DNA of 64,000 nucleotides, from the NCBI GenBank assembly GCA_016841605.1, contig JAENYV010000004.1, forward strand, positions 186,001-250,000, written 5' to 3'. The stretch comes from Dethiobacter alkaliphilus. GTDB taxonomy: Bacteria; Bacillota; Dethiobacteria; DTU022; UBA8154. The notes under the pieces were generated by a model that was not told where the DNA came from, did not search any database, and saw nothing but the letters and a program-made list of their open reading frames with translations. Below are positions 669 to 29,336 of this stretch, in pieces (position 1 is the first letter of the stretch; the number at the start of each line of letters is the position of its first letter). The position numbers and the translations under genes are program-made.

Positions 669-801
669 GAAAATGAATAACCTGTGCCGGGTGCCGGTGC
701 AAACCGGTGCCCGGGAAATTCTTTGAACTTTACCCCACTCTAATAAGACTTTGAGAAGATCAAAAGTGCCGGCAAGAGCCGGCGAAAGAGAGGAGAAAAA
801 G

Positions 802-1338
802 ATGACCCGGCAAGAAAAGAAATTTTCCGGTTCTGCGCTTGAAGGTAAGCACCATATCAACCTTACGGTAAACGGACAGCTCTACGAATTGGCAATAGGA
901 ACAGGGGCAGGTAAGGTTAATCCAAGCGATACCCTTTCCTTTACACTTAGGGAGACTCTTGGGCTTACAGGGACAAAAGTATCCTGCGACAGTGGTGCCT
1001 GCGGGGGATGTACCGTGATCATGGACGGAAGAGCGGTTCTGTCATGCATGCTGTTAAGTATTGAATGCGATGAAAAAGAGATTACTACAATTGAAGGACT
1101 GAAAAATCCAAAAACAGGAGAACTTGATCCCCTTCAGCAGTCATTTATCGATCATACGGCCTTTCAGTGCGGATTCTGCACCCCCGGAATGATCATGAGT
1201 TCCAAGGCTTTACTGAATGATAATCCTTCTCCAACAGAAGAAGAGGTAAAAGAGGCTCTTTCGGGTAATTTTTGTCGGTGTATCAGTCACTATCAAATTG
1301 TAAGAGCTGTTATGGCCGTTTCAGGAAAGGGGAAGTGA
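802..1338 (+). CDS. Molybdenum hydroxylase, small [2Fe-2S] subunit (copy 1)
   Basis: Electron-transfer subunit of a xanthine dehydrogenase/4-hydroxybenzoyl-CoA reductase-family enzyme, 178 residues. The N-terminal plant-type ferredoxin domain has Cys62, Cys67, Cys70 and Cys82 (CDSGACGGC block). The C-terminal helical domain has Cys123, Cys126, Cys158 and Cys160 (CGFC ... CRC), so both [2Fe-2S] clusters are complete. The ATG at 802 is preferred over an in-frame start at 751 because it follows a GAGAGGAGA ribosome site and because the second copy (25405) begins with the same residues. Large and FAD subunits follow directly. DNA of this gene and its leader is about nine-tenths identical by eye to the 25405 copy, far more than the neighbouring subunits, which suggests gene conversion. 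Confidence 0.93.
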   Translation: MTRQEKKFSGSALEGKHHINLTVNGQLYELAIGTGAGKVNPSDTLSFTLRETLGLTGTKVSCDSGACGGCTVIMDGRAVLSCMLLSIECDEKEITTIEGLKNPKTGELDPLQQSFIDHTAFQCGFCTPGMIMSSKALLNDNPSPTEEEVKEALSGNFCRCISHYQIVRAVMAVSGKGK

Positions 1339-1343
1339 AATCG

Positions 1344-3635
1344 GTGGCCGAAAATTACAGATATATCGGCAAAGCGATGCCTAGAATGGATGGACAGGAG
1401 ATCGTAACCGGAAAAACAGCCTTCCTTGATGACCTTAAATTCCACAATCTTTTGATCGGGAAGGTCCTGAGAAGCCCTCATCCCCATGCCATGATCAAAA
1501 GAATTGATACAAGCAAGGCAGAGCAGCTCAAGGGAGTTAAAGCGATTATCACGCACGAGACGGCTCCTGATTGGAAAGGCGGCCTCCCGCCCATCCGTCT
1601 TCTTGATCGAAAGGTACGCTACGTGGGAGATGTTGTGGCTCTCATTGCGGCAGAAACCGAACGGATTGCCGATCAAGCGAAGAGGCTTATTAATGTGGAG
1701 TATGAAATACTTCCAGCTGTCTTCGATGACTATGAGGCGATGAAACCCGGAGCCATTCAGCTTTATGACGATCTGCCGGGCAACATACTGCCGCTCGGAT
1801 CAGACGAGATTAGCGGCGCTACATGGGCAACTGAAATTGTAACGGGAGATGTGGAAAAGGGATTTGCAGAGGCCGATGCCATTATAGAAGGAGGCTTCGC
1901 ATACGACAATATACCGAATCCAATTTCCATAGAGTCGCCCGCGGCAGTAGCACTTTGGGAGGAGCCTGACAAAGTGACGCTATGGGTTTCCAATCATAAG
2001 GTATGGAATAACAAGCGTCTGCTCTCACCAATTTTCGGTGATAAGGTTCAGATAAGGATCATTGGAGGAGCCTGCGGGGGAAGCTATGGGGCAAAGGCCA
2101 TGTCCTGGCAGGTACAATGCTATGCTGCGGCTCTGAGCAAAGCAACGGGTCAGCCGGTGAAAGTAATTTTTTCAAAGGAAGAACAACTTGGTTGCTTTAT
2201 TTTGCGCCCGGCAACACGGCTTAATGCGAAGGTCGGTATGCAAAAGGACGGCACAGTGACCGCGGTAGCAGGTTCGTGGCTTGTCGGCACAGGCTACTAT
2301 TCCCGAACTACACAGATTCAGATTGCCGTAGGTTGTGGCGAGGCTATGATCGCCGTGCGGTGCAATAACTGGAACGTAAAACCGTCGATCGTGTGTACAA
2401 ACAGAAATGCATCCGGTATTGTCAGAGGTTTTGGCGGTCAGGAACTAAAATGCGCCCTGATTCCCCTTTTAAGTCTTGCCATGGAGAAGCTTTCCCTTGA
2501 CCCCTTTGAAGTTCTAAAAAAGAACTTTGTGAAACCGGGTGACGGTTATTTCTGGCGGAATGCCGCCTGGTATAACTATCGTGGTATCGATTACTCCCGG
2601 GCCATGGACGAAGGTGCTAAAACTTTCGGATGGAAAGAAAAATGGAAGGGATGGCTCAAGCCAACAGCAGTGGAAGGGACCAAGCATATCGGAGTAGGTG
2701 TCGGTGTGCACGGTAATGCGGATGTTGGGGAAGACATGTCCGAAGCATATGTTCGCATTGACAATGATGGAAGAGTAGTGGTTATTTCCGGTCTTACCGA
2801 GCACGGAACGGGGCAGAGAAGTAATGTAGTGAAAGCGGTTGCTGAAGTCCTGCAGTTACCCCTTGAATTTATCTCCATTACGCCCGGCGACACTTTGGTG
2901 ACACCTGTTGAATGGGGCCCGGCCGGATCAAGAGGGACCTATGCAATTTTAGGTGCCGCAATCTCAGCGGCTGATGATGCCAAGAAAAAACTTTTCCAGC
3001 TTGCTGCTCCAATGCTGGGTACAGACAACTTCGAAGACCTCGAAACCGCAGATGGTATCATCTGGCTGAAAAGCGACCCGGAAAAACGTATCGATTGGAA
3101 AAAAGTCTTAAAATTCCGAACAGTCATCGGTCATGGCCGTTTTGATGAAGACTTCTCATTATCCAACTGCATGATGAGCTTCGTAGAATTGCAAGTTGAC
3201 ACAGAAACAGGCAAGATCGATCTTCTCCGGGTAGTCAACGCCACCGACGTAGGCAAGGTGATAGATCCTCACGGCCTTGAAGGGCAGCTTAACGGCTGCT
3301 TGGGGTCTGCAGGCATTGACAGCGCCATCTTTGAAGAGACGATCCTGGATCCTACGACCGGTTGTATCCTCAACACAAACTTGATTGACTACAAATGGCG
3401 GACCTCAGCTGAACTGCCGGTGATTGAGAATGTTGTTCTGGAGACTCCCATCGACAGCCACCGCTTTCATGCACTTGGGATCGGTGAGATTAGTACCTCT
3501 CCCGGACCTTCGGCCGTGCTTATGGCTGCCTCGAATGCCATCGGCCAATGGCTCCATGAGTATCCGGTTACCCCTGAACGGGTCCTAAAGACCCTCGGTA
3601 AAAGTATGGAGAAGAAACAAGGAGGCAGTTTATGA
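1344..3635 (+). CDS. Molybdenum hydroxylase, large molybdopterin subunit (copy 1)
   Basis: Catalytic Moco subunit of the xanthine dehydrogenase family, 763 residues, which would hydroxylate or reductively dehydroxylate an aromatic or heterocyclic ring or aldehyde. Seen are the N-terminal a/b hammerhead domain, the glycine-rich GGACGGSYGAK cofactor loop, VRGFGGQE, and the active-site glutamate in GIGEIS near the C terminus (about residue 715). I chose GTG at 1344, six bases after the small-subunit stop and about 11 bases from a GGGG Shine-Dalgarno; its first residues (AENYRYIGK) match the start of the paralogue (TNYRFIGK). GTG at 1335, overlapping the previous stop, is an alternative. The gene overlaps the next one by four bases (ATGA). 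Subunit order is small-large-medium. Substrate cannot be assigned from sequence alone. Confidence 0.92.
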   Translation: MAENYRYIGKAMPRMDGQEIVTGKTAFLDDLKFHNLLIGKVLRSPHPHAMIKRIDTSKAEQLKGVKAIITHETAPDWKGGLPPIRLLDRKVRYVGDVVALIAAETERIADQAKRLINVEYEILPAVFDDYEAMKPGAIQLYDDLPGNILPLGSDEISGATWATEIVTGDVEKGFAEADAIIEGGFAYDNIPNPISIESPAAVALWEEPDKVTLWVSNHKVWNNKRLLSPIFGDKVQIRIIGGACGGSYGAKAMSWQVQCYAAALSKATGQPVKVIFSKEEQLGCFILRPATRLNAKVGMQKDGTVTAVAGSWLVGTGYYSRTTQIQIAVGCGEAMIAVRCNNWNVKPSIVCTNRNASGIVRGFGGQELKCALIPLLSLAMEKLSLDPFEVLKKNFVKPGDGYFWRNAAWYNYRGIDYSRAMDEGAKTFGWKEKWKGWLKPTAVEGTKHIGVGVGVHGNADVGEDMSEAYVRIDNDGRVVVISGLTEHGTGQRSNVVKAVAEVLQLPLEFISITPGDTLVTPVEWGPAGSRGTYAILGAAISAADDAKKKLFQLAAPMLGTDNFEDLETADGIIWLKSDPEKRIDWKKVLKFRTVIGHGRFDEDFSLSNCMMSFVELQVDTETGKIDLLRVVNATDVGKVIDPHGLEGQLNGCLGSAGIDSAIFEETILDPTTGCILNTNLIDYKWRTSAELPVIENVVLETPIDSHRFHALGIGEISTSPGPSAVLMAASNAIGQWLHEYPVTPERVLKTLGKSMEKKQGGSL

Positions 3636-4612
3636 GATCCTTTACTCATTTTGACGCTTATAGTATAGAAGATACCTGCACGGCCCTTGGACAGTACAAA
3701 GGCCGGGCGCAGCTTAAGGCGGGCGGCAGTGATCTCCTTTCCATCCTCAAGGGCGATTTTTTGCCTGATTATCCTGAAGTAATTATTAATATTAAGACCA
3801 TACCAGGCCTTGATTATATTAAGGAAGACGGAGATTTTCTCAGGATAGGTGCCCTTGTTCGTCTTATTGAGATGGTCCGCTCCCCTCTTCTTAGTCATAA
3901 ATACAGCGTTCTTGTTAAAGCAGCCCATACTGTGGCAAGTCCCCAGATCAGAAACGTGGCCACACTTGGTGGAAACCTTTGTCAGGATACCCGCTGTTGG
4001 TACTATAGATACCCCAGGAGTATGGGCGGTCCCCTGCAATGTCTGCGCAAGGGGAGCGGCTCTTGCCTCGCTGTTAAGGGGGATAACCGTTACCATGCTA
4101 TCATGGGCGGGAAAAAGTGTTTTGCTGTTTGTCCCTCTGACATGGCTGTTGCACTGGCCTGCCTTGACGGAAGGCTCATTATTGCCGGTCCCAGGGGAGA
4201 ACGAAACGTGGCAGTGGCCGACTTTTTTTACCCCCTTGGAAATGATCTGGCTGAGGACGAGATGATCACAGAGATCGAAATACCGGCCCGCAGGAATCCT
4301 GCGCAGCAGAACTTCCTTAAGTTCACCCTCCGTAAACCCATCGATTTTGCCATTGTGAGCGTAGCCTCTGTTATTAGCATTGAAAAAGGGGTCTGCACAG
4401 ATGCCCGTATAGTTCTCGGTGCCGTAGCTCCTTTTCCTGTCAGGGTGAGAGCAGCCGAAGAGCTTTTGATCGGCAAGCCCGTCAGTGAGGAGATTGTTAT
4501 GTCGGCAGCAGACGAGGCACTGGCTGGTTCTAAGCCGCTCAGCAAGAATGCCTATAAAGTTCAGATAGCAAAAACACTGGTAAAACGGGCGGTTATGGGC
4601 TCAACGGATTAG
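3632..4612 (+). CDS. Molybdenum hydroxylase, FAD subunit with extra Cys-rich insertion (copy 1)
   Basis: Medium FAD-binding subunit, 326 residues, passing electrons between the [2Fe-2S] clusters and an external carrier. FAD motifs AGGSDLL (residues 30-36) and ATLGGNL (110-116) are present. After the second motif there is a cysteine-rich insertion: Cys117, Cys122, Cys137, Cys145, Cys163 and Cys167. A similar insertion in 4-hydroxybenzoyl-CoA reductase (HcrB) binds an additional [4Fe-4S] cluster used for low-potential reduction, and ordinary xanthine dehydrogenases lack it. This makes a reductase of the 4-hydroxybenzoyl-CoA type a reasonable inference, not a proof. The start overlaps the upstream stop (ATGA), so translation is probably coupled. 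Confidence 0.9.
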   Translation: MRSFTHFDAYSIEDTCTALGQYKGRAQLKAGGSDLLSILKGDFLPDYPEVIINIKTIPGLDYIKEDGDFLRIGALVRLIEMVRSPLLSHKYSVLVKAAHTVASPQIRNVATLGGNLCQDTRCWYYRYPRSMGGPLQCLRKGSGSCLAVKGDNRYHAIMGGKKCFAVCPSDMAVALACLDGRLIIAGPRGERNVAVADFFYPLGNDLAEDEMITEIEIPARRNPAQQNFLKFTLRKPIDFAIVSVASVISIEKGVCTDARIVLGAVAPFPVRVRAAEELLIGKPVSEEIVMSAADEALAGSKPLSKNAYKVQIAKTLVKRAVMGSTD

Positions 4613-5069: not shown

Positions 5070-5852
5070 ATGGATTTTGAAACTGTATTATTTGAAAAGA
5101 AAGATGGGGTAGGAATCATTACTTTAAATCGTTCACAATACATGAATACACTAAACGGAAAGTTATTGGAAGAGCTTAACGAAGTTTTATCCCTGTGTGA
5201 AAATGATGCCGATGTTGGAGCGTTGGTATTGACAGGAGGAGCGAAGTGTTTCTGTGCGGGTGCCGATGTAAAGTATGTAACTTCTTTTAAATCACCTGGT
5301 GAGTTTACTGCTTTTTCTCGCTTAACACGTCAAACGTTTCATAATATCGAGATTTTCAGTAAGCCGGTTATTGCCGCAATTAGCGGAGTTGCTTTAGGTG
5401 GAGGCCTTGAATTGGCTCTCTGTTGCGATTTGCGAGTAGTTTCAGAAAATACCAAATTAGGTCTGCCGGAAGCTAAATTAGGAGCCATCCCCGGAGCCGG
5501 CGGTACACAGCGTTTACCCCGACTTATTGGACCCACATTAGCCAAACAGATTATTTTTACCGGAATGCACATAACCGGAACTGAGGCTTATAAAATGGGC
5601 TTAGTAAATTTAGTAACTTCAACAGAGGATTTTCTGGATGAGGCTGTAAAGTTGGCTGCCGATATCGCTGAGAAAGCGCCGCTGGCTTTGCGGGCTGCCA
5701 AGAGCTGTATCAATACAGGGCTGCAAATTGATCTGGAATCCGGATTGAACTATGAAACTCAGTGGTCTGTGTTTGTAGTCGGCAGCGAAGATCATGTTGA
5801 AGGTTTTCGTTCTTTTATAGAGAAGCGCAAGCCGGTATGGAAAGGGAAATAA
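5070..5852 (+). CDS. Enoyl-CoA hydratase (crotonase family), module 1
   Basis: Complete 260-residue crotonase that should add water to an alpha,beta-unsaturated acyl-CoA. Catalytic Glu114 (GGGLEL) and Glu134 (LPEAKLG) are both present, with the CAGADV oxyanion-hole segment near residue 62 and the GAIPGAGGTQRL motif. ATG at 5070 follows GGGAGG with good spacing. It is transcribed from promoter A, which carries the module 1 operator, and the TetR gene lies directly downstream. The closest relative in the window is the module 2 hydratase at 36174. In a bbs-like scheme it would be the BbsH-type hydratase; that role is inferred from context only. Confidence 0.93.
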   Translation: MDFETVLFEKKDGVGIITLNRSQYMNTLNGKLLEELNEVLSLCENDADVGALVLTGGAKCFCAGADVKYVTSFKSPGEFTAFSRLTRQTFHNIEIFSKPVIAAISGVALGGGLELALCCDLRVVSENTKLGLPEAKLGAIPGAGGTQRLPRLIGPTLAKQIIFTGMHITGTEAYKMGLVNLVTSTEDFLDEAVKLAADIAEKAPLALRAAKSCINTGLQIDLESGLNYETQWSVFVVGSEDHVEGFRSFIEKRKPVWKGK

Positions 5853-6039
5853 TAGGGGAAAATGTTATCCGGGTTAATATATGCTAATGTATATATATAT
5901 AGTAATAAAAAAGCTTTTAAAATTTTTTGTATAAATGATGCATTATATGCTATTATAAGAACATATTAACACTTTAAAGCTTAAAAAATTTCGGTGGAGC
6001 TCAACCCGGAAAATATTTCCACCTTTGAGGAGAGATATG

Positions 6040-6669
6040 ATGGATATTCATAACCGCAAACAATCAACCAACGATAAGGCTGCCGAGGACGTCTCGAAAA
6101 AAGGATCTTTGACCCGCAAGGATGTCCTGAAAGTTGCGGCCAGGCTAATCCGGGCACACGGCTACCACGGAACATCGACACAAATGATTGCTGACGAACT
6201 CGGTATCAGCAAATCAACTTTTTTCCACCATGCAAAGAGTAAACAGGATATGCTTTTTGAAATTCTAAATGAGCCATTACAGAAGGTTTACCCTAACTTG
6301 CAAAAAATATATGCGCAGCAGTTGTCTCCGAAAAATAAGCTGGAACTTGCAGTGAGTAACCATATATTGAACTTTGTTGAAAGTCTTGAGGTAGTAGCTG
6401 TCTTGTTACAAGAGCGCGATTGTCTTAAACCGCCCTATAGTGAGATTCTTTCTCCTGTACGCGAAGGTTATGTGAAGATTTTCCGACGTATTATTGAGGA
6501 TGGTGTGCAAAGCGGTGATTTTCGGCCTATCGAGCCTAAAATGGCCGCTTATGCCATTCTCGGAATGTGTAACTGGCTTGTGCAATGGTATAACCCGGAA
6601 GGCGAAATTTCTCCTCAGATGTTAACCGAAATGTATACGGACTTCGCTCTGAAAATACTTCTACCATAA
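6040..6669 (+). CDS. TetR/AcrR-family transcriptional regulator 1
   Basis: DNA-binding repressor of about 209 residues. The N-terminal helix-turn-helix is recognisable (GTSTQMIADELGISKSTFFHH), with a divergent helical ligand-binding C-terminal domain as in FadR/PaaR-like regulators that sense acyl-CoAs. The apparent TTG at 6025 sits inside the GAGGAGA ribosome site; ATG at 6040 (or 6037) is the real start. It is embedded in module 1, between the hydratase and the Mo/W enzyme. The four YCGANYGGTCGAT palindromes at module 1 promoters are its most likely targets. No copy of that motif is visible in its own upstream region. The inducer is probably a pathway CoA thioester, by family analogy. Confidence 0.9.
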   Translation: MDIHNRKQSTNDKAAEDVSKKGSLTRKDVLKVAARLIRAHGYHGTSTQMIADELGISKSTFFHHAKSKQDMLFEILNEPLQKVYPNLQKIYAQQLSPKNKLELAVSNHILNFVESLEVVAVLLQERDCLKPPYSEILSPVREGYVKIFRRIIEDGVQSGDFRPIEPKMAAYAILGMCNWLVQWYNPEGEISPQMLTEMYTDFALKILLP

Positions 6670-6895: not shown

Positions 6896-9124
6896 ATGGA
6901 CTTACGTGTAGTAATTAAAAAGTCGATTTGTGCCATGTGTGCAAATAACTGTGGCATTCTGGTATATGTTAAGGACGGTAAGGTTTTAAAGATATGCGGA
7001 AATCCGGATAACCCTTTATCCCGCGGTTTCACCTGTAAAAGACTTGCCAGTGCTGTTCAATGGCTAAATCATCCGGACCAGCTCATGTACCCGCTAAAAA
7101 GGGTCGGTCAAAGAGGAGAGGGTAAATGGAAGAGGATAACATATGAAGAGGCTATGGATGAAATAGCGGAGAAGTTGAAGGATTTAAAAGAAAAGTATGG
7201 ACCCCAAATCCTCGCTGTTTCCGAAGGAACCCTTAGATACGCTGAGTTTTGGATGCGAGCCAGGTTTATGAATTTATTTGGGAGCCCCAATATGTTTCAA
7301 CCGGGAGTTATTTGCGGATTAAATCGCGAAACAATAGGTGCTGCCATCGCTGGGTTTCGTGTCAATAGTAAGAATGGTAATCTGCAAAACACAAGGTGTG
7401 TAGTTGTACAGGGATTTAATCCTAAAGGGTCTTCTCCGATGTTGGCACAACAGATGAGGGAGATCAAAGCTCTCGCGCCCGGAAGGTTGCGTGTCATAGC
7501 AATAGATCCCAGGGATACTGGAATTGCCTCTGAAGAAACAGATATACAATTAAAGTTAAGGCCCGGTACCGATGCGGCCTTAATGCTTTCCTGGTTGAAT
7601 ATTATTATAAACGAGGAGCTTTATGACCAGGATTTTGTTAGGGAGTATACCTTTGGTTTTGATAAATTAGCTGAACGTGTGCAAGATTATCCGCCGAAAA
7701 GAGTGGCTGATATTACCGGGATAACCGTTGATAAGATAATAGAATCAGCCAGAATCTTCGCGACAACCAAGCCGGCTTTAATTTTCGGCGGTGTAGGCTC
7801 AGATCAGATTGGATTTAATTCCACAAGGGTTGAACAGGCTGCGGCCTGTTTAATGGCCATAACGGGAAACATTGATATTCCCGGCGGGAAAGCGGTACCC
7901 AATTATCCAGGTATTGAAATAGATGGAAATAGACCCCTGCGAGATTCCGACATGGAGCTTACCGACAAGCTTACTAAGAAGCAAAAAGCAAAACATATCG
8001 GTGGTGACAGATTTAGGCTAATGGGTTACCCCGGATATGAAGCGTGGGCTCCTGCCTATAAAAAAACTTATGGTGTACCAGCCCCGACAATGCATACTGT
8101 CTCGGCCAATGAGCCAATGATTTATCGCGGCATAATTAACGGCGACCAGAATCGTATCAGAGCCCTCATAATCTGGGCAAGCAACCCTCTTAACAGGACT
8201 GCTAACACAAAGCTGGTTTATAGGGCATTAAAGAGTACTAATCTAGAACTTTCCATAGTCCTTGATTTTTTCATGACTCCTAGCGCTGAGATAGCTGACT
8301 ATGTCATGCCCAGTGCGAGCTTTTTAGAAATGCCGTATTGGACTACTTGGGAAGATTTTGCGGATGTCTGTTGCTTTGGTGAGGCGGCAGTTGAGCCGTT
8401 GGGGGAAAGGAAAGATGCCTTCTATTTTTGGCGCGATTTAGGAGTAAGGCTTGGTCAAGAACAATATTGGCCGTGGAAGACACATGAAGAGGTTATGGAA
8501 TACCGGGCGGAGCCGATAGGTTATTCTTTTGAAAAACTTGTGCAGATTGCCGGCCTGGTTCCCCCTGTGCAATTTAAAAAGCATGAAAAACGGGGTTTTG
8601 CGACCAGTACCGGTAAGTTTGAGTTGTATTCGACGGTATTGGAGAAACTCGGCTATGATCCTCTTCCATATTATAAGGAGCCGCCGGAAAGCCCTACAAG
8701 TACACCAGAGACAGCCAAAAGCTATCCCTTAATATTGACTACCGGAGGAAGAAGTGTTCCCCAGTATCACTCAGAACATCACCAAATAGGCATGGGGATG
8801 CGTGAAAGACATCCCAACCCGATTGTAGATATTCATACCGAAACGGCGCGTCAACTGGATATAAATGATGGCGATTGGGTGTACATTGAAACGAAGAGGG
8901 GCCGCATAAAACAGAAGGCCCGCGTGACAGACGGGATCCGACCTGATGTTGTAAATTGTGAAGCGAGCTGGTGGTATCCTGAAATGCCGGGCGAAGAACC
9001 TTCTTTACATGGTTTTTTAGAATCGAATGCCAATGTCCTTACAGTTGACGATCTTGATGCTTGTGATGAGTTAGTGGGTGGTGGGTCTCTTAGAGCATTA
9101 TTATGTAAGGTTTATAAGGCTTGA
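6896..9124 (+). CDS. Mo/W bis-pterin oxidoreductase, acetylene-hydratase-like branch
   Basis: DMSO-reductase superfamily enzyme, 742 residues. A [4Fe-4S] site CxxCxxxC...C lies at the N terminus (CAMCANNC, then Cys in GFTCKR). A cysteine in GVICGLNR (about residue 140) sits where acetylene hydratase has its metal-ligating Cys141, and the C-terminal pterin-binding domain also resembles that protein. The aspartate that acetylene hydratase needs directly after its second cluster cysteine is replaced by Asn here (C-A-N-N-C), so acetylene hydration is unlikely. ATG at 6896 follows GAGAGG at 9 bases. The enzyme lacks an obvious Tat signal and is probably cytoplasmic. The gene after it encodes a ferredoxin-containing protein, a likely electron partner. 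No equivalent exists in module 2. Confidence 0.85.
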   Translation: MDLRVVIKKSICAMCANNCGILVYVKDGKVLKICGNPDNPLSRGFTCKRLASAVQWLNHPDQLMYPLKRVGQRGEGKWKRITYEEAMDEIAEKLKDLKEKYGPQILAVSEGTLRYAEFWMRARFMNLFGSPNMFQPGVICGLNRETIGAAIAGFRVNSKNGNLQNTRCVVVQGFNPKGSSPMLAQQMREIKALAPGRLRVIAIDPRDTGIASEETDIQLKLRPGTDAALMLSWLNIIINEELYDQDFVREYTFGFDKLAERVQDYPPKRVADITGITVDKIIESARIFATTKPALIFGGVGSDQIGFNSTRVEQAAACLMAITGNIDIPGGKAVPNYPGIEIDGNRPLRDSDMELTDKLTKKQKAKHIGGDRFRLMGYPGYEAWAPAYKKTYGVPAPTMHTVSANEPMIYRGIINGDQNRIRALIIWASNPLNRTANTKLVYRALKSTNLELSIVLDFFMTPSAEIADYVMPSASFLEMPYWTTWEDFADVCCFGEAAVEPLGERKDAFYFWRDLGVRLGQEQYWPWKTHEEVMEYRAEPIGYSFEKLVQIAGLVPPVQFKKHEKRGFATSTGKFELYSTVLEKLGYDPLPYYKEPPESPTSTPETAKSYPLILTTGGRSVPQYHSEHHQIGMGMRERHPNPIVDIHTETARQLDINDGDWVYIETKRGRIKQKARVTDGIRPDVVNCEASWWYPEMPGEEPSLHGFLESNANVLTVDDLDACDELVGGGSLRALLCKVYKA

Positions 9125-10606: not shown

Positions 10607-11020
10607 ATGAATAATGATTTAAAACCGGTAATGGAGGGAATATTCGAGGCCGGTCCTTCTCCGCAGTTAATTGGAGCGATTTGTCCGGAGTGTCAGCAAA
10701 AATTTTTCCCTAAACCGATGGTTTGTCCCCAATGCCTGGGGGAAGTACAGGATATTAAACTTTCCCCGGTAGGAAAACTATATACTTACGCGATATTGCG
10801 GACAAAAGCAATGTATAAACTGCCCCAACCATATGCAGTAGGATGGGTCGATCTTGAAGCTGATGGTTTAAGGATATTTACCCTGCTCGATCCGGAAAAG
10901 ATAGAAGATTTAGATTTTGGTAAGAAGGTTTTCCTGCGGGTCGGACCAATAGGTGTTGATAATAACGGTGAGGCCTGCTTACGCTATTATTTCACAACTC
11001 AAGATGGAGGTGACAAATAA
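10607..11020 (+). CDS. DUF35 zinc-ribbon/OB-fold protein, thiolase partner (module 1)
   Basis: 137-residue protein with a rubredoxin-like zinc ribbon (Cys26, Cys29, Cys40, Cys43) followed by an OB-fold. Proteins of this family sit beside SCP-x-type thiolases and form a complex with them; BbsA of the benzylsuccinate pathway is one example. ATG follows AAGGAGGG. Its stop codon overlaps the thiolase start (TAATG), which fits stoichiometric, coupled synthesis. A close homologue with the same four cysteines is at 36992 in module 2. Confidence 0.88.
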   Translation: MNNDLKPVMEGIFEAGPSPQLIGAICPECQQKFFPKPMVCPQCLGEVQDIKLSPVGKLYTYAILRTKAMYKLPQPYAVGWVDLEADGLRIFTLLDPEKIEDLDFGKKVFLRVGPIGVDNNGEACLRYYFTTQDGGDK

Positions 11021-12168
11021 TGCGGCCGGTAGATATCATTGGCGTTGGAATTACAAACTTTGGAAAGCACATTGAGAAATCACTGGTGGAACTGGGTGGT
11101 AAGGTTGCCGTTGAAGCGCTTAAGGATGCCGGGGTCAAGCCATCCCAGATTAATGCAGGTTTTTTTGCCAATATGCAGGCAGGCAGTCTTTTCTCAGATT
11201 TTACTATAGGCCAAAATGTGTTTTATCAGGCTGGAATCAATAGTGTTCCTGTATTTAATGTGGAAAATGCCTGTACATCCGGTTCGTCTGCCTTTAATTT
11301 GGCCTGGATGGGTGTTGCGTCAGGAGCTTATGATATGGCCATGGTTCTTGGAGCTGAGAAACTGATTATACCAAATCTTGGCTTGATGCAAGCCGGGACC
11401 TCGGAGCTTGACACTTTGGAAGGCATGGTAGTGCCGAATGCCTTTGCCATGCGCGCTAACTTGCATATGGCAACTTACGGTACGACAAAAGAGCAGCTGG
11501 CTATGGTCTCTGTAAAAAACAGGCGCCATGCGAGTATGAATCCTTTAGCCCAGTTCAGAAACCCAATTACTGTGGAAGAGGTCCTTAATGCTCCAATGAT
11601 AGCAGACCCTTTGACACGTTTGAGTTGTTGCCCAAACGCTGATGGAGCAGCGGCCTTGGTATTATGCGCCTCTGAACTGTCCGGACGCTATACGTCCAAA
11701 CCTATTCGTGTCGCGGGTTCGGTACTGGTGTCAGGGAGCTATAAAAATCCCTGTAATTTGGCCCAATGGGAGGCAGATAAACGTGCCAGCAGCATTGCTT
11801 ATGAGATGGCAGGCCTGGGACCGGAAGACCTGGATGCTGTTGAATGTCATGATGCTTTTACAATTTCTGAGATATTACACTACGAGGGGCTTGGTTTGTG
11901 CCCTGAGGGCGAGGGTGGCAGGTTTATAGAATCAGGGGCAACAACCCTTGGTGGGAAAATACCTGTAAATCTCTCCGGAGGATTGCTTTCGAAAGGACAT
12001 CCTCTCGGTGCTACAGCTGTGGCGCAGATCATAGAAGGTGTCCGCCAGCTTCGCGGAGAGGCCGGCAGTTTACAAGTCGATGGTGCTAAAGTATTTATGG
12101 CTGAATGCATGGGAGCCGACAAGGCCGGCGATGTTAAGACTTGTAGCGTAAATATTATCACTAAATAA
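11020..12168 (+). CDS. SCP-x-like thiolase (module 1)
   Basis: 382-residue thiolase that would cleave a 3-oxoacyl-CoA with free CoA. The nucleophile Cys85 lies in NACTSGSSA, the histidine motif in ECHDAF, and the C-terminal GGLLSKGHPLGAT motif carries the second catalytic histidine region. This is the lipid-transfer/SCP-x branch, which needs a DUF35 partner, encoded immediately upstream with a one-base overlap. In the bbs operon the matching pair BbsA/BbsB cleaves benzoylsuccinyl-CoA. The paralogue at 37408 is close throughout. Exact substrate not determined. Confidence 0.9.
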   Translation: MRPVDIIGVGITNFGKHIEKSLVELGGKVAVEALKDAGVKPSQINAGFFANMQAGSLFSDFTIGQNVFYQAGINSVPVFNVENACTSGSSAFNLAWMGVASGAYDMAMVLGAEKLIIPNLGLMQAGTSELDTLEGMVVPNAFAMRANLHMATYGTTKEQLAMVSVKNRRHASMNPLAQFRNPITVEEVLNAPMIADPLTRLSCCPNADGAAALVLCASELSGRYTSKPIRVAGSVLVSGSYKNPCNLAQWEADKRASSIAYEMAGLGPEDLDAVECHDAFTISEILHYEGLGLCPEGEGGRFIESGATTLGGKIPVNLSGGLLSKGHPLGATAVAQIIEGVRQLRGEAGSLQVDGAKVFMAECMGADKAGDVKTCSVNIITK

Positions 12169-12220
12169 TAAGTTTTAAAGGAAGAAATTATTATTATAAT
12201 TTATCAAGGGAGGTTTTTAT

Positions 12221-12979
12221 ATGGACTTAGGATTAACCGGCAAAAATGCGGTGGTAAGTGGAGGGGCTAGAGGTATCGGCCAAGCTATTTGTTTAGGCTT
12301 AGCAGATGAAGGAGCCAATGTCGGTATTCTTGATCTGAACATCGAGGGGGCAGAGGAAACTGCCCAGATGGTTCGGGCAAAATCCCGTAAATCCACAGCT
12401 GTGAAAGTGGACCTGGCCGATTACAATAGTGTAAGCCAGGCTTTTGAGAAGGTAGCTGCAGATCTGGGCGAAGTTGATGTGCTGGTATACTGTGCTGCTA
12501 TTACGGACAACATGGCGACTATTGACAAGATGAGCTCGGAGGCCTGGAGTAAAGAGATAGCCGTAAATCTTTACGGTGCGTTCTACTGTATCAAACAGGT
12601 GGGAGCAGCGATGGCCAAGCGAAAGTGGGGACGGATTATACTTGTTTCGTCAAGGGCAGGTTTGGACGGCGGCTTTGGACAGTGTTCCTATTCTTCAAGC
12701 AAGGCGGGCCTTTGCGGTTTGGCAAAAACTACGGCATTGGAATATGCGAGGTTTGGCGTTACCAGTAATGTTATTTTCCCGAGTCTGGCCAATACACCGG
12801 CAACGCAGGGCATCCCTGAAGAAATGAGGAATCGGATTATTCGCAGGATTCCAACCCGGCGTTTGCAAGAGCCTGAAGAATTGGCTTCTGTTGTATCTTT
12901 CCTCGCCGGTGAACAGGCTCGCAGTATTAATGGAGCAGAGATAATGGTAACCGGAGGCATTGAGCTGTTTACATTCTAG
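12221..12979 (+). CDS. Short-chain dehydrogenase/reductase, 3-hydroxyacyl-CoA type (module 1)
   Basis: 252-residue SDR that would oxidise a 3-hydroxyacyl-CoA to the 3-oxoacyl-CoA used by the thiolase upstream. The nucleotide-binding motif is SGGARGIG (residues 13-20). The catalytic tetrad is complete: Asn116, Ser144, Tyr157 and Lys161. Asp38, after the second beta strand, suggests NAD preference. ATG follows GGGAGG. Module 1 has only this single SDR, whereas module 2 has two, one of them inactive; here the enzyme is presumably a homo-oligomer. Confidence 0.9.
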   Translation: MDLGLTGKNAVVSGGARGIGQAICLGLADEGANVGILDLNIEGAEETAQMVRAKSRKSTAVKVDLADYNSVSQAFEKVAADLGEVDVLVYCAAITDNMATIDKMSSEAWSKEIAVNLYGAFYCIKQVGAAMAKRKWGRIILVSSRAGLDGGFGQCSYSSSKAGLCGLAKTTALEYARFGVTSNVIFPSLANTPATQGIPEEMRNRIIRRIPTRRLQEPEELASVVSFLAGEQARSINGAEIMVTGGIELFTF

Positions 12980-13192
12980 TAAGTTTTTAAAATAGAGAAT
13001 TTTCTAGTAAATATTATCAAATTGCAGGATCTGGCGCCTGGAAAAATAATTAAACTAGTAATGTCATAATTATTTCTAGAAAGTTTGAAAGGTTTACTAT
13101 TGAATTTTACTTAATTTTTCGGGCGCCGATTTTTCCCTATGTCAACGAGATTAATATCCAATATATCTAATATTTAGAGGTGAAAAAATATT

Positions 13193-14371
13193 ATGGATTT
13201 TAAATTAACTGAAGAGCAGCAATTATTAAAAAAAAATATCGGAGACTTCGCCAGGGAAGAGTTGGCCCCAATGGTACGTGAAATTGATGAAAAAGGAGGA
13301 TTCTCCTGGGAAGTATGGCGCAAGCTGGCTTCATTGGGTATTCCAGGTTTAGCCGCGCCCGAAGAATACGGGGGAGAGGGTGTGGAAAGTCTGCTTACAC
13401 AAACCATGGTTGTTGAGGAATTGGCCAGGCATGATTTTTCATCTGCAGCAAATGTTGTCTCTAATTGGTCGATTATGCATGTTCTTACCGTCGGTAACGA
13501 AGAACAGAAAGAGCGCTATCTAAAGCCTCTTTCTACCGGTGAATCGGTAGGTGCTTTTGCACAAACCGAGCCCGATGCCGGCTCGGATGTTGTAGCGCTG
13601 AGGACCTCTGCTCGTCTGGAAGACGGCTACTATATTATTAATGGCGATAAATGCTTCGTAACGCAAGCAGGAGAGGCGGATTTTACAATAGTTATGGCCA
13701 GGACGAGTAATGAAAAAGGAGCCAACGGTATAAGTGCGCTGTTAGTTGACAAAGACGCCCCCGGTTTAATTCTTGGACAAAAAGAAGATAAAATGGGCTA
13801 CCGTGGTTCGACTACCAGACAGGTATCCTTTAGTGATTGTCGAGTTCCGGCTTCAAACCTGCTGGGAGAAGAAGGAAAGGGTCTCAAGACGGCAATGAAG
13901 ATGCTGACGGGAGGGCGGGTACTAACAGCGGCCCAAGCGCTGGGTCAGGCACAGGCTGCCTTAGACGCTTCGGTGAAACATGCTAAGGAGCGAGTTCAGT
14001 TCGGCAAACCCATCGGGAGTTTCCAACTTATTCAGGGTATGATAGCCGACATGGCAATACAGATCGAATCGGCCCGACTCCTGACCTACTATGCTGCTTG
14101 GCTGAAAGATAATGATCAACCATTTATTTCATACGCGTCAATGGCGAAAACTCTTGCAACAGATACAGCGATGAAGGTTGCCGTGGATGCCGTGCAAATT
14201 TACGGGGGCTATGGCTTTATGCGTGACTATCCTGTTGAGAGTATTATGCGCAATGTTAAGATTACGCAAATTTACGAAGGAACTAATCAGATCCAGAGGC
14301 TCATAATTGCCCGCGATTTGCTGGACGAAAGGGCATCATTCAGGGATATGTACGGTCAAAGCAAAGCCTAA
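13193..14371 (+). CDS. Acyl-CoA dehydrogenase (module 1)
   Basis: 392-residue FAD acyl-CoA dehydrogenase introducing the 2,3-double bond in a CoA thioester. The FAD/substrate segment FAQTEPDAGSD is near residue 122 and the C-terminal IYEGTNQIQ motif contains the catalytic base Glu362 in the position of medium-chain dehydrogenase Glu376. ATG follows AGAGGTG. There is a 213-base gap upstream in which I find no module operator, so it may share the operon promoter B. No electron-transfer flavoprotein genes are in the window. A close paralogue is at 40267. Confidence 0.92.
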   Translation: MDFKLTEEQQLLKKNIGDFAREELAPMVREIDEKGGFSWEVWRKLASLGIPGLAAPEEYGGEGVESLLTQTMVVEELARHDFSSAANVVSNWSIMHVLTVGNEEQKERYLKPLSTGESVGAFAQTEPDAGSDVVALRTSARLEDGYYIINGDKCFVTQAGEADFTIVMARTSNEKGANGISALLVDKDAPGLILGQKEDKMGYRGSTTRQVSFSDCRVPASNLLGEEGKGLKTAMKMLTGGRVLTAAQALGQAQAALDASVKHAKERVQFGKPIGSFQLIQGMIADMAIQIESARLLTYYAAWLKDNDQPFISYASMAKTLATDTAMKVAVDAVQIYGGYGFMRDYPVESIMRNVKITQIYEGTNQIQRLIIARDLLDERASFRDMYGQSKA

Positions 14372-14425
14372 ACATTTAAGTTTATGTATTCCATATTTTC
14401 CACAAAAGGAAAGGAGGAGTATTTT

Positions 14426-16072
14426 GTGATTCAGGATTTGGCCCACGAGCGGGTGATGCATACGCTTCTTGAGAGGCAAGCGGTAAAATATGGTGAGCGT
14501 ACCTACCTGTGTTACAAAGATGAAGAGTTTAGCTTTGAAGGAGTAAATGATTTGGCTAACCGGGTTGCCGGCGGCCTGCAGAAATTGGGGATAGTCAAAG
14601 GGGATAAAGTAGCTGTTATTATGGACAATTGTCCGGAAGTAATTTTTCTAGTCTTCGGGTTGTCCAAGCTGGGAGCTGTTGAGGTGCCGATCAATACCGC
14701 CCACAAAGGTGAAGTGCTGAATTATATGCTTAGTCATTCCGATTCAAATTTATTATTCATGCACAGCCACTATATTAATCAGCTGGAACCGGTGTTGGAA
14801 AAAATACCAAATATACGTAATATTGTAATTTTGGATGATGATAGCTCTGAGCAGATATCGGAGCAAAAATATGCAAGTTTAAACATTTTAAAAGAGAAAG
14901 TAGGAGCATTTGGCAAACAGGTGCTGGAATGGAACAAATTAATCGATAATGATGGTATATATCAGCCGGTAGATGTGACATGGGCCGACCCTATTATGAT
15001 TTTATACACATCCGGAACAACCGGACTTTCAAAAGGTGTTTTACTTCCACATAATCTAATGTTCAGCGCGGCAGAACGTATCAAAGACTGGATGCTTAAT
15101 GTAAATGAGGAGGACCGCTGCTTTAATTACCAACCATTATTTCACATCGCCGGGTGGCACGGCTGCATTAATCTTGCCTTAATGAGCGGTGCGCGGGCAG
15201 TATTGGCTAAAACTTTTTCAGCAAGCAGGTTCTGGGATGAAATAAGACGCTATGGATGTACCTGTTCAGTTTACATAGGAGCTGTCAGTTCGATCTTATT
15301 TAAAGCAGCCCCCCGGTCTGATGACGCTGACAATCCTTTACGGATGATGGTGGGTGCACCGACCCCGAAGGATATATTTGAGGAGTTTCAGCAGCGGTTT
15401 GGAGTAAGGCTCGTGGAGTTCTACGGATCAACGGAAATTGCCGCTCCTACCATGAATGAACTGGGCCAATACAAGATTGGTTCTTGCGGTAAAGTACATC
15501 CGGATTTTGAAGTCAAGCTCGTTGACGACTCCGGTGCTGAGGTGGGAGTAAACACTGTTGGGGAGATTCTCGTTCGTACCCATAAACCGAACTCAATGAT
15601 GCTTGGATATTATAAAATGCCGGAACAGACGGTCGAAGCCTGGAAAGATTTATGGTTCCACACCGGTGATTACGCTTTTTATGATGAAGACGGCTACTTT
15701 TTCTTTGCTGATCGAAAAAAAGACGCCCTAAGGCGTCGCGGCGAGAACATCTCCTCTTTTGAATTGGAGAAAACTATCAGCTCGCATCCGGCTGTCCAAG
15801 AATCAGCTGTAATCGGAGTTAAATCTGATTTGGGAGAGGATGATGTCATGGTCTGCCTGACGCTCGCGTCGGAACAAAGCCTCAAATATGAGGAACTTTT
15901 GACCTTTTGCGAAGAACGGATGGCCTATTTCATGGTCCCGCGATACGTGCGCTTCATGGATGCACTTCCTAAAACGCCGACTCTTCGCGTGGAAAAGTAC
16001 AAATTGCGCGCTGAAGGTATCACAGCTGACACCTGGGACAGGGAAAAGGCCGGTTATAAGGTTAAGCGTTAG
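14426..16072 (+). CDS. Acyl-CoA ligase, AMP-forming (CaiC-like), module 1
   Basis: 548-residue acid-CoA ligase that activates the substrate carboxylate with ATP. Motifs in order: YTSGTTGLSKG phosphate-binding loop, EFYGSTE, WFHTGD, the hinge FADRKKDALRRRGENIS, and the catalytic lysine segment RVEKYK near the C terminus. GTG at 14426 is chosen because it follows AAGGAGGAG at 8 bases; an in-frame ATG at 14384 has no ribosome site. The sequence is closest in feel to carnitine/crotonobetaine-CoA ligases. It presumably starts the pathway by charging the acid imported by the nearby TRAP systems. The paralogue is at 41489. Confidence 0.9.
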   Translation: MIQDLAHERVMHTLLERQAVKYGERTYLCYKDEEFSFEGVNDLANRVAGGLQKLGIVKGDKVAVIMDNCPEVIFLVFGLSKLGAVEVPINTAHKGEVLNYMLSHSDSNLLFMHSHYINQLEPVLEKIPNIRNIVILDDDSSEQISEQKYASLNILKEKVGAFGKQVLEWNKLIDNDGIYQPVDVTWADPIMILYTSGTTGLSKGVLLPHNLMFSAAERIKDWMLNVNEEDRCFNYQPLFHIAGWHGCINLALMSGARAVLAKTFSASRFWDEIRRYGCTCSVYIGAVSSILFKAAPRSDDADNPLRMMVGAPTPKDIFEEFQQRFGVRLVEFYGSTEIAAPTMNELGQYKIGSCGKVHPDFEVKLVDDSGAEVGVNTVGEILVRTHKPNSMMLGYYKMPEQTVEAWKDLWFHTGDYAFYDEDGYFFFADRKKDALRRRGENISSFELEKTISSHPAVQESAVIGVKSDLGEDDVMVCLTLASEQSLKYEELLTFCEERMAYFMVPRYVRFMDALPKTPTLRVEKYKLRAEGITADTWDREKAGYKVKR

Positions 16073-16100
16073 ATAGTTCCAATTGGGAGGGAAATAAAGA

Positions 16101-17492
16101 ATGATTAAAACCCCCATTGATTATATTGTCAGAATTTCAGAAAATATATTAACTTCAAGTTATGAAAATTTTGATCAAGAGACATTGGAAAATGCAAAAA
16201 AAAGGATTATTGATGTATTAGGGTGTTTAATAAGTGGTGCCGGGGCTGCGGGAAATTCAGGTTTAATTGACCTAGTTAAGGATTGGGGAGGAAGGGAAGA
16301 AGCTACTATTTTAGTTTATGGTGGAAAGGCACCGGTTCACAACGTAGTCTTGGCAAATAGTATGATGGCTAGGTCTTACGATTTTGAAACAGTGGGTGCA
16401 TTGGTGGAGGGGGTTGATTACGCATCTCATATTAGTGGGACTACAGTAACAACTGCATTAAGTTTAGGCGAATTTAAAGATATAAGCGGTAAAGAATTGA
16501 TTACTGCATTATTGGTAGGCGATGATATTGCATGTAGGCTTGTAGCCGCGTCAATATCCGAATTTGCGATGGGATGGGACTGGGTTGGAATAATTAATGC
16601 GTTTGGAGCTACAGCTATTGCAGCCCGTTTATTAGGGTTAACAATAAAGCAAATACAAAATGCATTTGGTATTGTCCTAAGTCAATTGTCCGGTAGTTTC
16701 CAAAATATTTGGGATGGAGCTGCTACTTTTAAACTTCTACAAGGATTATCAGCTAAAAACGGTATTCTTTCAGCAGAGTTATCTAAGGCCGGCTTAACTG
16801 GGCCGGAAGATGCTTTGTTCAGTAAGTTCGGTTATTTCCATCTTTATACGAAAGGTTGTCGAGATCCGGAAATATTAATAAAGGATTTGGGTAAAAAATA
16901 CTATGCTGAGGCAACTTTTAAAGTATATCCTTGTTGTCGTGCAAATCATGCTGCTATTGATTGTGCTCTAAACATTGTTAATACATATGCAGTAGAAAAC
17001 GATCGGATTGATGAAATAATAATTTATGTAAGCCCAATGGTTCGTAATATGTTTGTTGGGCAGCCTTTTAAAATTAGAGAAATCCCCCAGATAGATGCGG
17101 CTTTCAATATTCGGTATTGTGTAGCAAGTGTATTGCTGAGAAAAACTATTAGTTTAGAACACTTCCAGGAAAATATGGTAAGGGATCCTGAGATTAGAAA
17201 CATTGTTAATAAGATTAAAATTGAAGAACAAGAGAGATTAGAGCAAAAATTGGGAGCAAGCGTAAAAGTAAAGATGAAAGATGGTAAAGAATTATTTTCT
17301 AATGTAGATTATGCAAAAAGCGATCCCTTACAGAGTCCTCTTTCTATAGAAGAAATTAAAAAGAAATTTATGAATAATGTAACCTTTGCGCAAAATATAT
17401 CAGAAGAAAATGCAGAAAAGATACTAACTTTAATAGATAATCTGGAAAAAATGGATAGTATACACGAGTTAATTAAACTACTATCAACTTAA
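16101..17492 (+). CDS. MmgE/PrpD-family protein (module 1)
   Basis: 463-residue member of the family containing 2-methylcitrate dehydratase, cis-aconitate decarboxylase and iminodisuccinate epimerase. The conserved region MARSYDFE...HISGTTVTTA corresponds to the substrate-binding segment of the all-helical first domain, and KVYPCCRANHAAIDCAL to the second domain. ATG follows GGGAGG, 28 bases after the ligase stop. Base composition is lower in GC than the preceding genes. Its homologue occupies the equivalent place in module 2, so it is part of the pathway rather than a passenger. A dehydration, isomerisation or decarboxylation of a di- or tricarboxylate is likely, but the substrate is unknown. 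Confidence 0.85.
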   Translation: MIKTPIDYIVRISENILTSSYENFDQETLENAKKRIIDVLGCLISGAGAAGNSGLIDLVKDWGGREEATILVYGGKAPVHNVVLANSMMARSYDFETVGALVEGVDYASHISGTTVTTALSLGEFKDISGKELITALLVGDDIACRLVAASISEFAMGWDWVGIINAFGATAIAARLLGLTIKQIQNAFGIVLSQLSGSFQNIWDGAATFKLLQGLSAKNGILSAELSKAGLTGPEDALFSKFGYFHLYTKGCRDPEILIKDLGKKYYAEATFKVYPCCRANHAAIDCALNIVNTYAVENDRIDEIIIYVSPMVRNMFVGQPFKIREIPQIDAAFNIRYCVASVLLRKTISLEHFQENMVRDPEIRNIVNKIKIEEQERLEQKLGASVKVKMKDGKELFSNVDYAKSDPLQSPLSIEEIKKKFMNNVTFAQNISEENAEKILTLIDNLEKMDSIHELIKLLST

Positions 17493-25404: not shown

Positions 25405-25950
25405 ATGACCCGGCAAGAAAAGAAATTTTCCGGTGTTGCGCTTGAAGGTAAACACCGTATCAACCTTACGGTAAACGGACAGCTCTACGAATTGGCAATA
25501 GGAAGAGGAGCAGGTAAGGTTAATCCAAGCGATACCCTTTCCTTTACACTCAGGGAGACTCTTGGGCTTACCGGGACAAAAGTATCCTGCGACAGCGGTG
25601 CCTGCGGGGCATGTACCGTGCTCATGGACGGACGAGCGGTTCTATCCTGCATGATGTTGAGCATTGAATGTGATGGAAAAGAGGTTACTACAATTGAAGG
25701 ACTGAAGGATCCCAAAACAGGAGAACTTGATCCCCTGCAGCAGTCATTTATCGATCATACGGCCTTTCAGTGCGGCTTCTGCACTCCTGGAATGATCATG
25801 AGTTCCAAGGCCTTACTGAATGATAATCCTTCTCCAACGGAAGAAGAGGTAAAAGAGGCTCTTTCGGGTAATTTTTGCCGGTGTATTACTCATTACCATG
25901 TTGTGGATGCTGTAATGGATGCAGCCAAAAAGGGAGTGGAGAGTAAATGA
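25405..25950 (+). CDS. Molybdenum hydroxylase, small [2Fe-2S] subunit (copy 2)
   Basis: 181-residue [2Fe-2S] subunit with CDSGACGAC plus a fourth cysteine in the ferredoxin domain, and CGFC...CRC in the helical domain. It differs from the 802 copy by few residues, and the 50-base leader (GATCAAAAGTGCCGGC, then a purine-rich ribosome site) is also shared. The start of the large-subunit gene overlaps its stop (ATGA). No module 1 operator precedes it, so the trio may be constitutive, separately controlled, or reached by read-through from promoter D. Confidence 0.93.
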   Translation: MTRQEKKFSGVALEGKHRINLTVNGQLYELAIGRGAGKVNPSDTLSFTLRETLGLTGTKVSCDSGACGACTVLMDGRAVLSCMMLSIECDGKEVTTIEGLKDPKTGELDPLQQSFIDHTAFQCGFCTPGMIMSSKALLNDNPSPTEEEVKEALSGNFCRCITHYHVVDAVMDAAKKGVESK

Positions 25951-28235: not shown

Positions 28236-29212
28236 AATCTTTTGCCCATGTTAATGCCCGCTCAGTGGATGAAGCTATTCAACTGCTTACAAAATACAAT
28301 GGAAGAGCGAAGCTTAATGCCGGTGGAACGGATCTTATTGGGGTCTTAAAGGACCGTATTCTCCCCGGCTATCCTGAAGCGATCATCAACATCAAAACAA
28401 TTCCTGGTCTTGGTACCTTGGAAAAAGGCGAGGATAGTGTAAGTATCGGTGCGTTAACTCCTCTTGTTAATTTAATCGAATCTCCTTTTATTGAAAAGAA
28501 CTATCCTCTTCTTCAAGAGGCCGCCAAAACTGTCGCCTCTCCACAGGTTAGGAATATGGCGACGGTCGGCGGCAACATCTGTCAGGATACACGTTGCTGG
28601 TACTACCGCTACCCTGATCAGATCGGAGGCATAATCGAATGCTTTCGGAAAGGTAAGAAGGGCTGTCCTGCCGTTGCCGGTGACAATCGTTACCATGCTA
28701 TTATGGGAGCTGCAAAGTGTTATGCGGTTTGTCCTTCCGACATTGCTGTGGCCTTAATTGCTCTTGGGGCAACCCTTACCATTGCCGGCGCGGAGGGAAG
28801 TCGCACTATCCCTCTGGAAGATTTCTATACCCCCTTAGGGAACGTTCTTGCCCCGGAGGAGATGATTAAGGCGATCAGAATTCGAAAACCTTTCCCCTCT
28901 ACCAAACAAACCTTTCTTAAATTTACAATCAGGAAGCCGATTGATTTTGCCGTGGTCAGCGTGGCATCAAATATTACTATTGAGCAAAGGATCTGTACTA
29001 GAGCCCGGATTGTTTTGGGGGCGGTAGCACCCACCCCTGTCCGTGCCTTTGCGGCAGAGGATTTTTTAAAAGGAAAAGAATTGTGCGAGGAAATTGCTGT
29101 TGAAGCAGCGGCGCTTGCTTTGGCAGGGGCTAAGCCCCTTTCTAAAAATGCTTATAAAATAGAGATCGCAAAAACTTTAGTGAAGGAGGCAATATTATCG
29201 AAGATAAAATGA
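28232..29212 (+). CDS. Molybdenum hydroxylase, FAD subunit with extra Cys-rich insertion (copy 2)
   Basis: 326-residue FAD subunit. FAD motifs are AGGTDLI (30-36) and ATVGGNI (110-116). The inserted cysteine pattern Cys117, Cys122, Cys137, Cys145, Cys163, Cys167 is identical in spacing to copy 1. Such an insertion carries a [4Fe-4S] cluster in the HcrB subunit of 4-hydroxybenzoyl-CoA reductase. Last gene of the trio; a long perfect hairpin follows at 29299. Confidence 0.9.
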   Translation: MKSFAHVNARSVDEAIQLLTKYNGRAKLNAGGTDLIGVLKDRILPGYPEAIINIKTIPGLGTLEKGEDSVSIGALTPLVNLIESPFIEKNYPLLQEAAKTVASPQVRNMATVGGNICQDTRCWYYRYPDQIGGIIECFRKGKKGCPAVAGDNRYHAIMGAAKCYAVCPSDIAVALIALGATLTIAGAEGSRTIPLEDFYTPLGNVLAPEEMIKAIRIRKPFPSTKQTFLKFTIRKPIDFAVVSVASNITIEQRICTRARIVLGAVAPTPVRAFAAEDFLKGKELCEEIAVEAAALALAGAKPLSKNAYKIEIAKTLVKEAILSKIK

Positions 29213-29298
29213 ATTAAAGAATGAATATTTAATGTGGGGCCAATGGTTATTTATAAAAGGGAGCGGCATCAGTCCTTAAGCCTGTTGGATGTCGTTTA

Positions 29299-29336
29299 CC
29301 GCCCTAAGCCTGAACAAATATTCAGGCTTAGGGCGG
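29299..29336 (+). terminator. Perfect 16-bp hairpin after the hydroxylase trio
   Basis: CCGCCCTAAGCCTGAA (29299-29314) and its exact complement (29321-29336) enclose a 6-base loop. There is no U-tract, so termination is uncertain, but the place fits the end of the module 1 operon. An open frame across it (29234-29506) is not a credible gene. Confidence 0.55.

Follow-up and report, generated by a model that had tools for sequence, protein, structure and literature searches.

The AH-like gene of the analyzed window (the whole stretch of 64,000 nucleotides) encodes a Mo/W enzyme from an uncharacterized clade that is the sister of acetylene hydratase (AH), and the enzyme is not an acetylene hydratase. 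It probably serves electron transfer in the anaerobic breakdown of ring compounds, rather than hydration of acetylene. The genes and sites discussed below are listed in Table 1.

Table 1. Positions in the window of the AH-like gene, its predicted active-site motifs, and the neighboring genes
Feature	Position	Strand	Remarks
XO (xanthine-oxidase-family) three-subunit enzyme	751..4612	+	Module 1
Enoyl-CoA hydratase family	5070..5852	+	Module 1
TetR-family regulator	6025..6669	+	Directly upstream of the AH-like gene
AH-like bis-pterin Mo/W enzyme	6896..9124	+	742 aa; reading frame open from ATG 6836
Cluster motif C12-x2-C15-A16-x2-C19	6929..6952	+	Ala at the position of AH Asp13
C47-K48-R49 (TCKR)	7034..7042	+	Fourth cluster cysteine C47; Arg where AH has Lys48
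Cys140 (VICGLN)	7313..7315	+	Predicted Mo/W ligand; aligns with AH Cys141
P0002	9196..10197	+	Ferredoxin domain (2[4Fe-4S]) at the N-terminus, joined to a KorB/PorB-like beta subunit
Zinc-ribbon/OB protein, thiolase, SDR, acyl-CoA dehydrogenase, CoA ligase, MmgE/PrpD	10607..17492	+	Rest of module 1
Paralogous module 2	25405..46782	+	Other genes inside the span, some on the minus strand

Similarity to acetylene hydratase and phylogenetic placement

The start at 6896 is preceded, at a distance of about 10 nt, by the ribosome site GGAGAGG, which is better than that of the upstream ATG, and it gives a protein in line with the length of the relatives. Promoter and terminator patterns were close to the shuffled expectation. 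Three Pfam domains above their cut-offs, Molybdopterin (123 bits, cut-off 24), Molydop_binding (77.5 bits, cut-off 26.8), and Molybdop_Fe4S4 (49.7 bits, cut-off 22.7), together with the matching fold, identify the protein as a member of the DMSO reductase (bis-PGD) superfamily. Its top solved match in a phmmer search against the PDB is AH (2e7z; E 1.9e-125, 252 of 715 aligned residues identical), followed by the Thermus polysulfide reductase (E 5.3e-74). For the AlphaFold2 model (built on 14 sequences; pTM 0.85, mean pLDDT 78.5), 2e7z also ranks first in the PDB according to Foldseek (TM 0.86), and VIA-align superposes the two with Z 41.8 and rmsd 2.7 over 702 residues, the next entry having a Z of 35.5. 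Judging by both the sequence and the predicted fold, the likeness to AH is real and far above chance, and the AH-like build proposed in the initial annotation is borne out.

The query shares with AH of Pelobacter (Syntrophotalea) acetylenicus the fold, the four cluster cysteines, and the cysteine ligand: the AH cluster motif C9-x2-C12-x3-C16 ... C46 and the ligand Cys141 are all matched, and the C-x2-C-x3-C site and metal-ligand Cys140 named in the initial annotation are indeed present (C12, C15, C19, and C140). Both 2e7z and its closest relative in our set, L096, are, like the query, cytoplasmic proteins of about 740 aa. In contrast, AH residues Asp13, Lys48, Ile142, Trp179, Trp293, and Trp472 correspond in the query to Ala, Arg, Gly, a gap, Gly, and Glu, respectively. 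Lys48, Ile/Leu142, and the three tryptophans have roles in AH. Trp179 and Trp472 are among the residues named in a 2025 review on AH (PMC12096430).

The main tree was built on 38 of 93 rows and a quicker one on 65 of them, after thinning for near-duplicates and long branches; the earliest tree omitted three candidate rows, L073_2828, L101, and L027. In the 38-row tree, AH pairs with a single row, L096, a plasmid protein of Rhodococcus opacus DSM 44186 (support 100/99), and this pair is the sister of a 22-row clade that contains the query (98/98). Within the latter, the query groups at 100/99 with L084, L069, and the Coriobacteriia proteins L158, L142, and L164, six rows in all; two quicker trees give the same placement. 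A topology with the query forced together with AH and L096 was rejected (AU p 0.0005), and one with the whole six-row clade moved there had AU p 0.019. The clade (with the former p-value) and the missing AH residues rule out the query as an AH orthologue.

We take DSM 44186 to be one of the acetylene-using isolates of R. opacus. L096 is a fair positive control, because R. opacus is reported to use acetylene aerobically and to have an AH that depends on Mo (PMC7858054). L096 keeps Asp13, Lys48, Cys141, Trp179, Trp293, and Trp472, with Leu for Ile142. As a side observation, its gene (5992-8352, “molybdopterin-dependent oxidoreductase”), which thus carries the AH signature residues tested, lies near a ferredoxin and transposases, and its product very likely is an aerobic acetylene hydratase. 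No true AH was found in 345 genomes of one phylum, the best match having 40% identity. In the literature, PMC13101534 mentions AH in no more than a reference, and PMC10100899 gives it as a MopB family; our search found no published description of a protein such as the query, which does not prove that none exists.

The best NCBIfam matches of the query by score are Fdh-alpha and PhsA, as would be expected for a formate dehydrogenase or a polysulfide/thiosulfate reductase, but the scores of 291 and 274 bits fall short of the cut-offs of 666 and 694, respectively, and the query reaches no cut-off among 25 of the 26 NCBIfam models listed. Moreover, the trees group it with AH kin, outside of which falls the one PsrA row (two joined fragments) of the 38-row tree; it has Cys-Gly where the formate dehydrogenase rows have Cys(Sec)-His; and its N-terminus, as read from the translation, carries no TAT signal. 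We consider this assignment highly improbable, with identity as a formate dehydrogenase or PhsA/PsrA ruled out by the cut-offs and the clade. Membership in a known formate dehydrogenase or thiosulfate reductase clade, which the initial annotation had named as contrary to its proposal, was found neither by the cut-offs nor in any of three trees. The host also has a formate-dehydrogenase-like paralogue (G000:C11:192336-194258, L009) with one in-frame TGA, possibly encoding selenocysteine.

AH-like proteins with 38-54% identity to the query are found in Desulfobacterota, Chloroflexota, Coriobacteriia, and the host’s order; they include L084, L069, L158, L142, L164, and the CKPRC group. These uncharacterized proteins of anaerobes have the same cofactor motifs as the query and differ from it in gene neighbors. 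Some AH-like proteins deviate at the cofactor sites themselves: L094 (G099:C1:2860838-2863051) has CFGCWLQAG, with Ala for the third cluster cysteine and Trp at the Asp13 position; L076 (G028:C157, 8207-10300) has Ser at the expected metal-ligand cysteine (NMSGGP); and in the Coriobacteriia proteins L152 and L155 (G903, G919) the second cluster cysteine is replaced by Ser (CFASHANC).

Outside the AH kin, the next clade of the 38-row tree comprises six rows (97/95) and holds Coriobacteriia proteins that lack the first cluster cysteine (L026, L143, and L159). According to an eLife 2020 study, AH is the closest relation of the catechol dehydroxylases, and similar proteins are present in aromatic-degrading anaerobes (PMC7028382). 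The soluble dehydroxylases of the Gordonibacter type are described in the same study as lacking TAT and encoded beside a gene for a small 4Fe-4S protein (PMC7028382), and their catalytic subunits, in a review, as having no Fe-S motif (PMC11574389). L026, L143, and L159, identified by motif and not by comparison with named dehydroxylase sequences, fit this description. The query resembles the Gordonibacter type in the absence of TAT, in the adjacent 4Fe-4S protein gene, and, by the motif criterion, in belonging to a neighboring clade. It differs in that its catalytic subunit keeps the Fe-S motif (C12, C15, C19, C47), in having Ala instead of His, and in the larger partner gene, a ferredoxin and KorB-like fusion without thiamine motifs; in the 38-row tree, which has no named dehydroxylase sequence, it lies outside the clade of the cysteine-lacking Coriobacteriia rows.

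The residue at the position of AH Asp13

In the N-terminal stretch SICAMCANNCG of the query, the second cluster cysteine, C15, is directly followed by Ala16 (codon GCA). Asp occupies this position in three of 109 aligned rows, namely, AH, L096, and the remote row L042; according to the 2025 review, Asp13 is specific to the AH subfamily (PMC12096430). An identity to the query of 38% or more is reached by 57 rows. His stands at this position in 42 of them and Lys in 12, Trp and Ser occur once each, and the remaining row (L016, without the N-terminus) is cut short, so that His or Lys is found in 54 of 56 readable rows, Asp in none of the 57, and the Ala of the query is unique. All five mates of the query in the six-row clade have His, and elsewhere in the aligned rows Ala is seen at this position in two formate dehydrogenases only. 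By parsimony, the node shared by the dehydroxylase-like clade and the AH kin has His, as does the six-row clade of the query; at the node of AH and its sister clade, His, Gly, and Asp are equally possible. On this reconstruction, Asp is best seen as AH’s own state, and the change in the query as one from His to Ala. The initial annotation was right that the residue is not Asp, but its description of an enzyme without the catalytic aspartate suggests a loss, and this is the wrong frame, as Asp is absent from all 57 close rows and its absence is normal outside AH. The real oddity of the query is that Ala replaces the His or Lys of its close relatives. GCA is three base changes away from either His codon, hence an isolated sequencing error is no explanation for Ala16.

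The query has drifted in other respects as well. Its end branch in the 38-row tree is about three times longer than those of the two nearest rows (0.52 vs 0.16 and 0.19), and at 13 positions, with a PYP motif among them, it differs from the residue that 85% or more of 34 clade-mates share; the P and Y of this motif are invariant in these 34 proteins. Such drift could reflect a new substrate or decay of the copy; the cofactor ligands have all been retained. A duplicate that keeps its fold and is losing its catalytic site would account for the long branch, the 13 departures, and the Ala16 unique among close rows, and yet the reading frame is intact with a good ribosome site, and the four cluster cysteines, Cys140, and the cofactor domains have all been kept, which makes decay quite doubtful.

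Gene neighborhood and the adjoining P0002 gene

As stated in the initial annotation, the gene lies in a CoA-ester module (module 1), and all genes of this module are on the same strand. The XO large subunit of module 1 has the alpha subunit of 4-hydroxybenzoyl-CoA reductase as its nearest PDB entry (E 3.5e-74), and for the FAD subunit the nearest entry is aldehyde oxidase 5y6q, with 4-hydroxybenzoyl-CoA reductase fourth. The Fe-S insert of this subunit was rejected as proof of a 4-hydroxybenzoyl-CoA reductase, because with aldehyde oxidase as the best PDB match of the subunit the insert does not settle the matter. None of the module 1 proteins scanned reached the cut-off of an aromatic-pathway NCBIfam equivalog, and so the ring-substrate reading is made at the family level. 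The region upstream of the window encodes the alpha subunit of an indolepyruvate:ferredoxin oxidoreductase, which passes its cut-off, and a pair of the 2-hydroxyacyl-CoA dehydratase/benzoyl-CoA reductase type, which passes none.

Modules 1 and 2 share ten gene pairs, with identities of 90, 57, and 59% for the XO subunits, 59% for the hydratase, 66% for the thiolase, 58% for the SDR, 75% for the acyl-CoA dehydrogenase, 60% for the ligase, 64% for PrpD, and 23% for TetR. The AH-like gene and P0002 are absent from module 2, and thus look like a two-gene insert providing an extra step of module 1. Both CoA-ester modules (751-17492 and 25405-46782), each with an XO-family enzyme and MmgE/PrpD and with transporters nearby, occur in this one 64-kb window, and their small XO subunits (751-1335, 25405-25950) are 90% identical, compared to 57% for the large subunits; gene conversion between the former is possible.

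P0002 starts 72 nt past the stop of the AH-like gene, behind a strong GAGGAGG site. We take HG-, GDGD, and TGGQ to be the thiamine-site motifs of 2-oxoacid oxidoreductase beta subunits. P0002 lacks all three, alone in this respect when compared with 11 and then 14 more relatives; the thiamine-diphosphate/Mg motif GDG...N is not found, QGYWG standing in place of QGDGD, and CPGC and two other conserved cysteines are retained. Identity to the beta subunits of 2-oxoacid:ferredoxin oxidoreductases is about 30-45%, with common cluster cysteines, and the ferredoxin fusion also occurs on the beta subunit in L123; unlike these enzymes, P0002 has neither the thiamine motifs nor an alpha subunit next to it. 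No P0002 orthologue was found, at the limits set, in 60, 398, or 297 genomes, the best other match in the 398 genomes having 36% identity over residues 5-330 and the best match of the beta domain in the 297 genomes 44%. The adjacency and the motifs suggest that P0002 may be an electron carrier that has left thiamine chemistry behind; because no orthologue was found, its pairing with the AH-like enzyme rests on adjacency in one genome.

At the relatives’ loci the context is different. We searched 26 loci of the query clade, 25 of them distinct (L019 and L108 represent a single genomic site). Genes similar to XO or 4-hydroxybenzoyl-CoA reductase are found beside none of the 25, hence the module of the window is not a conserved context. 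The neighbors of the two nearest intact relatives, L069 and L103, are uninformative, and among 37 sequences searched only L070 and L072 have old-yellow-enzyme neighbors. Genes for a PEP-synthase-like pair (PpsA/PpsB), or for its first member alone, are present at five of the 25 loci, all five in the nine-row CKPRC subclade (5/9), and we read them as phenylphosphate-synthase-like; the 11 other AH-like loci do not have them. Within the CKPRC subclade, contig ends truncate three of the nine loci, and L021 clearly lacks the genes over its 18 kb. One of the five loci also encodes a UbiD protein close to the phenylphosphate carboxylase beta subunit (429 bits, cut-off 469). The aromatic linkage is thus seen in a cousin group and not in the nearest kin of the query. 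With the PpsA/PpsB-like genes at L014, L019/L108, L020, L022, and L114, in some cases with UbiD or UbiX, the CKPRC AH-like protein is a candidate for a role in the anaerobic catabolism of phenol or catechol.

Possible chemistry and its significance

The initial annotation left the choice between a hydratase and a redox enzyme with new chemistry. A non-redox hydratase that uses another acid/base residue and another substrate (e.g., an alkyne, an alkene, or a CoA ester of the enoyl type) would agree with AH being the nearest characterized enzyme in sequence and fold and with the beta-oxidation-like composition of module 1. However, the AH pocket residues (Trp/Ile) are missing, the module already has an enoyl-CoA hydratase, the cluster-rich P0002 gene is directly downstream, and the exchange of AH Asp13 to Ala, the residue of the query, is reported in the 2025 review to abolish activity (PMC12096430). 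We consider hydration unlikely, and the redox alternative is favored; the chemistry may be new.

For the redox alternative, redox C-O chemistry, foremost reductive dehydroxylation, with an acid or CoA ester of aromatic or alicyclic type handled by module 1 as the substrate, has, in our estimate, an even chance of being correct. In its favor are the fold and cofactor sites, the clade separate from AH and the missing AH residues, the neighboring clade with cysteine-lacking proteins, the traits in common with the Gordonibacter type (no TAT, adjacent 4Fe-4S protein gene), the PpsA/PpsB-like genes of the CKPRC subclade, and the restriction of the AH-like gene and P0002 to module 1. Mo enzymes of both the DMSO-reductase and the XO type were shown in a PNAS 2025 study to dehydroxylate phenols (PMC12771579). 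The query would work in the cytoplasm as a soluble protein of the AH/catechol-dehydroxylase group, with Mo or W bound by bis(pyranopterin guanine dinucleotide) and by a cysteine, and with a single [4Fe-4S] cluster. Electrons would pass between this cluster and those of P0002, and protons would come from water, the substrate, or another residue, such a source being needed because the His or Lys of the relatives is Ala16 here. That the sister enzyme, AH, is non-redox counts against the redox reading, as do the module context not shared by the other loci, the uninformative neighbors of L069 and L103, the failure to find P0002 orthologues in the genomes searched, and the identification of the dehydroxylase clade by motif.

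The reaction might also run in the oxidative direction, so that a ring or a side chain is hydroxylated independently of O2 and the electrons are released via P0002. Ethylbenzene dehydrogenase and pyrogallol transhydroxylase are hydroxylases of the same superfamily and distant fold matches of the query, and the gene position permits such a role; nevertheless, both enzymes rank far below 2e7z, and direction-specific evidence points neither way, so that we regard hydroxylation as improbable.

A more far-reaching form of the dehydroxylation proposal is a new anaerobic two-component C-O enzyme system, in which a dehydroxylase-type enzyme without an ionizable residue above the metal is combined with P0002 acting only as a relay. 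We deem it possible, though rather unlikely. If true, P0002 would derive from a 2-oxoacid oxidoreductase beta subunit that, no longer capable of thiamine catalysis, was turned to a new use as a multi-cluster electron relay for ring catabolism.

The AH sister clade is large in anaerobes, e.g., one 2.2-Mb Dehalococcoidia genome (G103, L013) has 13 matches to the AH-like protein, and AH-similar proteins are, according to the 2025 review, still without biochemical characterization (PMC12096430). A single position over the metal is occupied by a basic residue in this clade, by Asp in AH, and by Ala in the query, and this pattern makes the puzzle of AH’s lone non-redox chemistry testable, namely, whether this position decides between hydration and redox catalysis.
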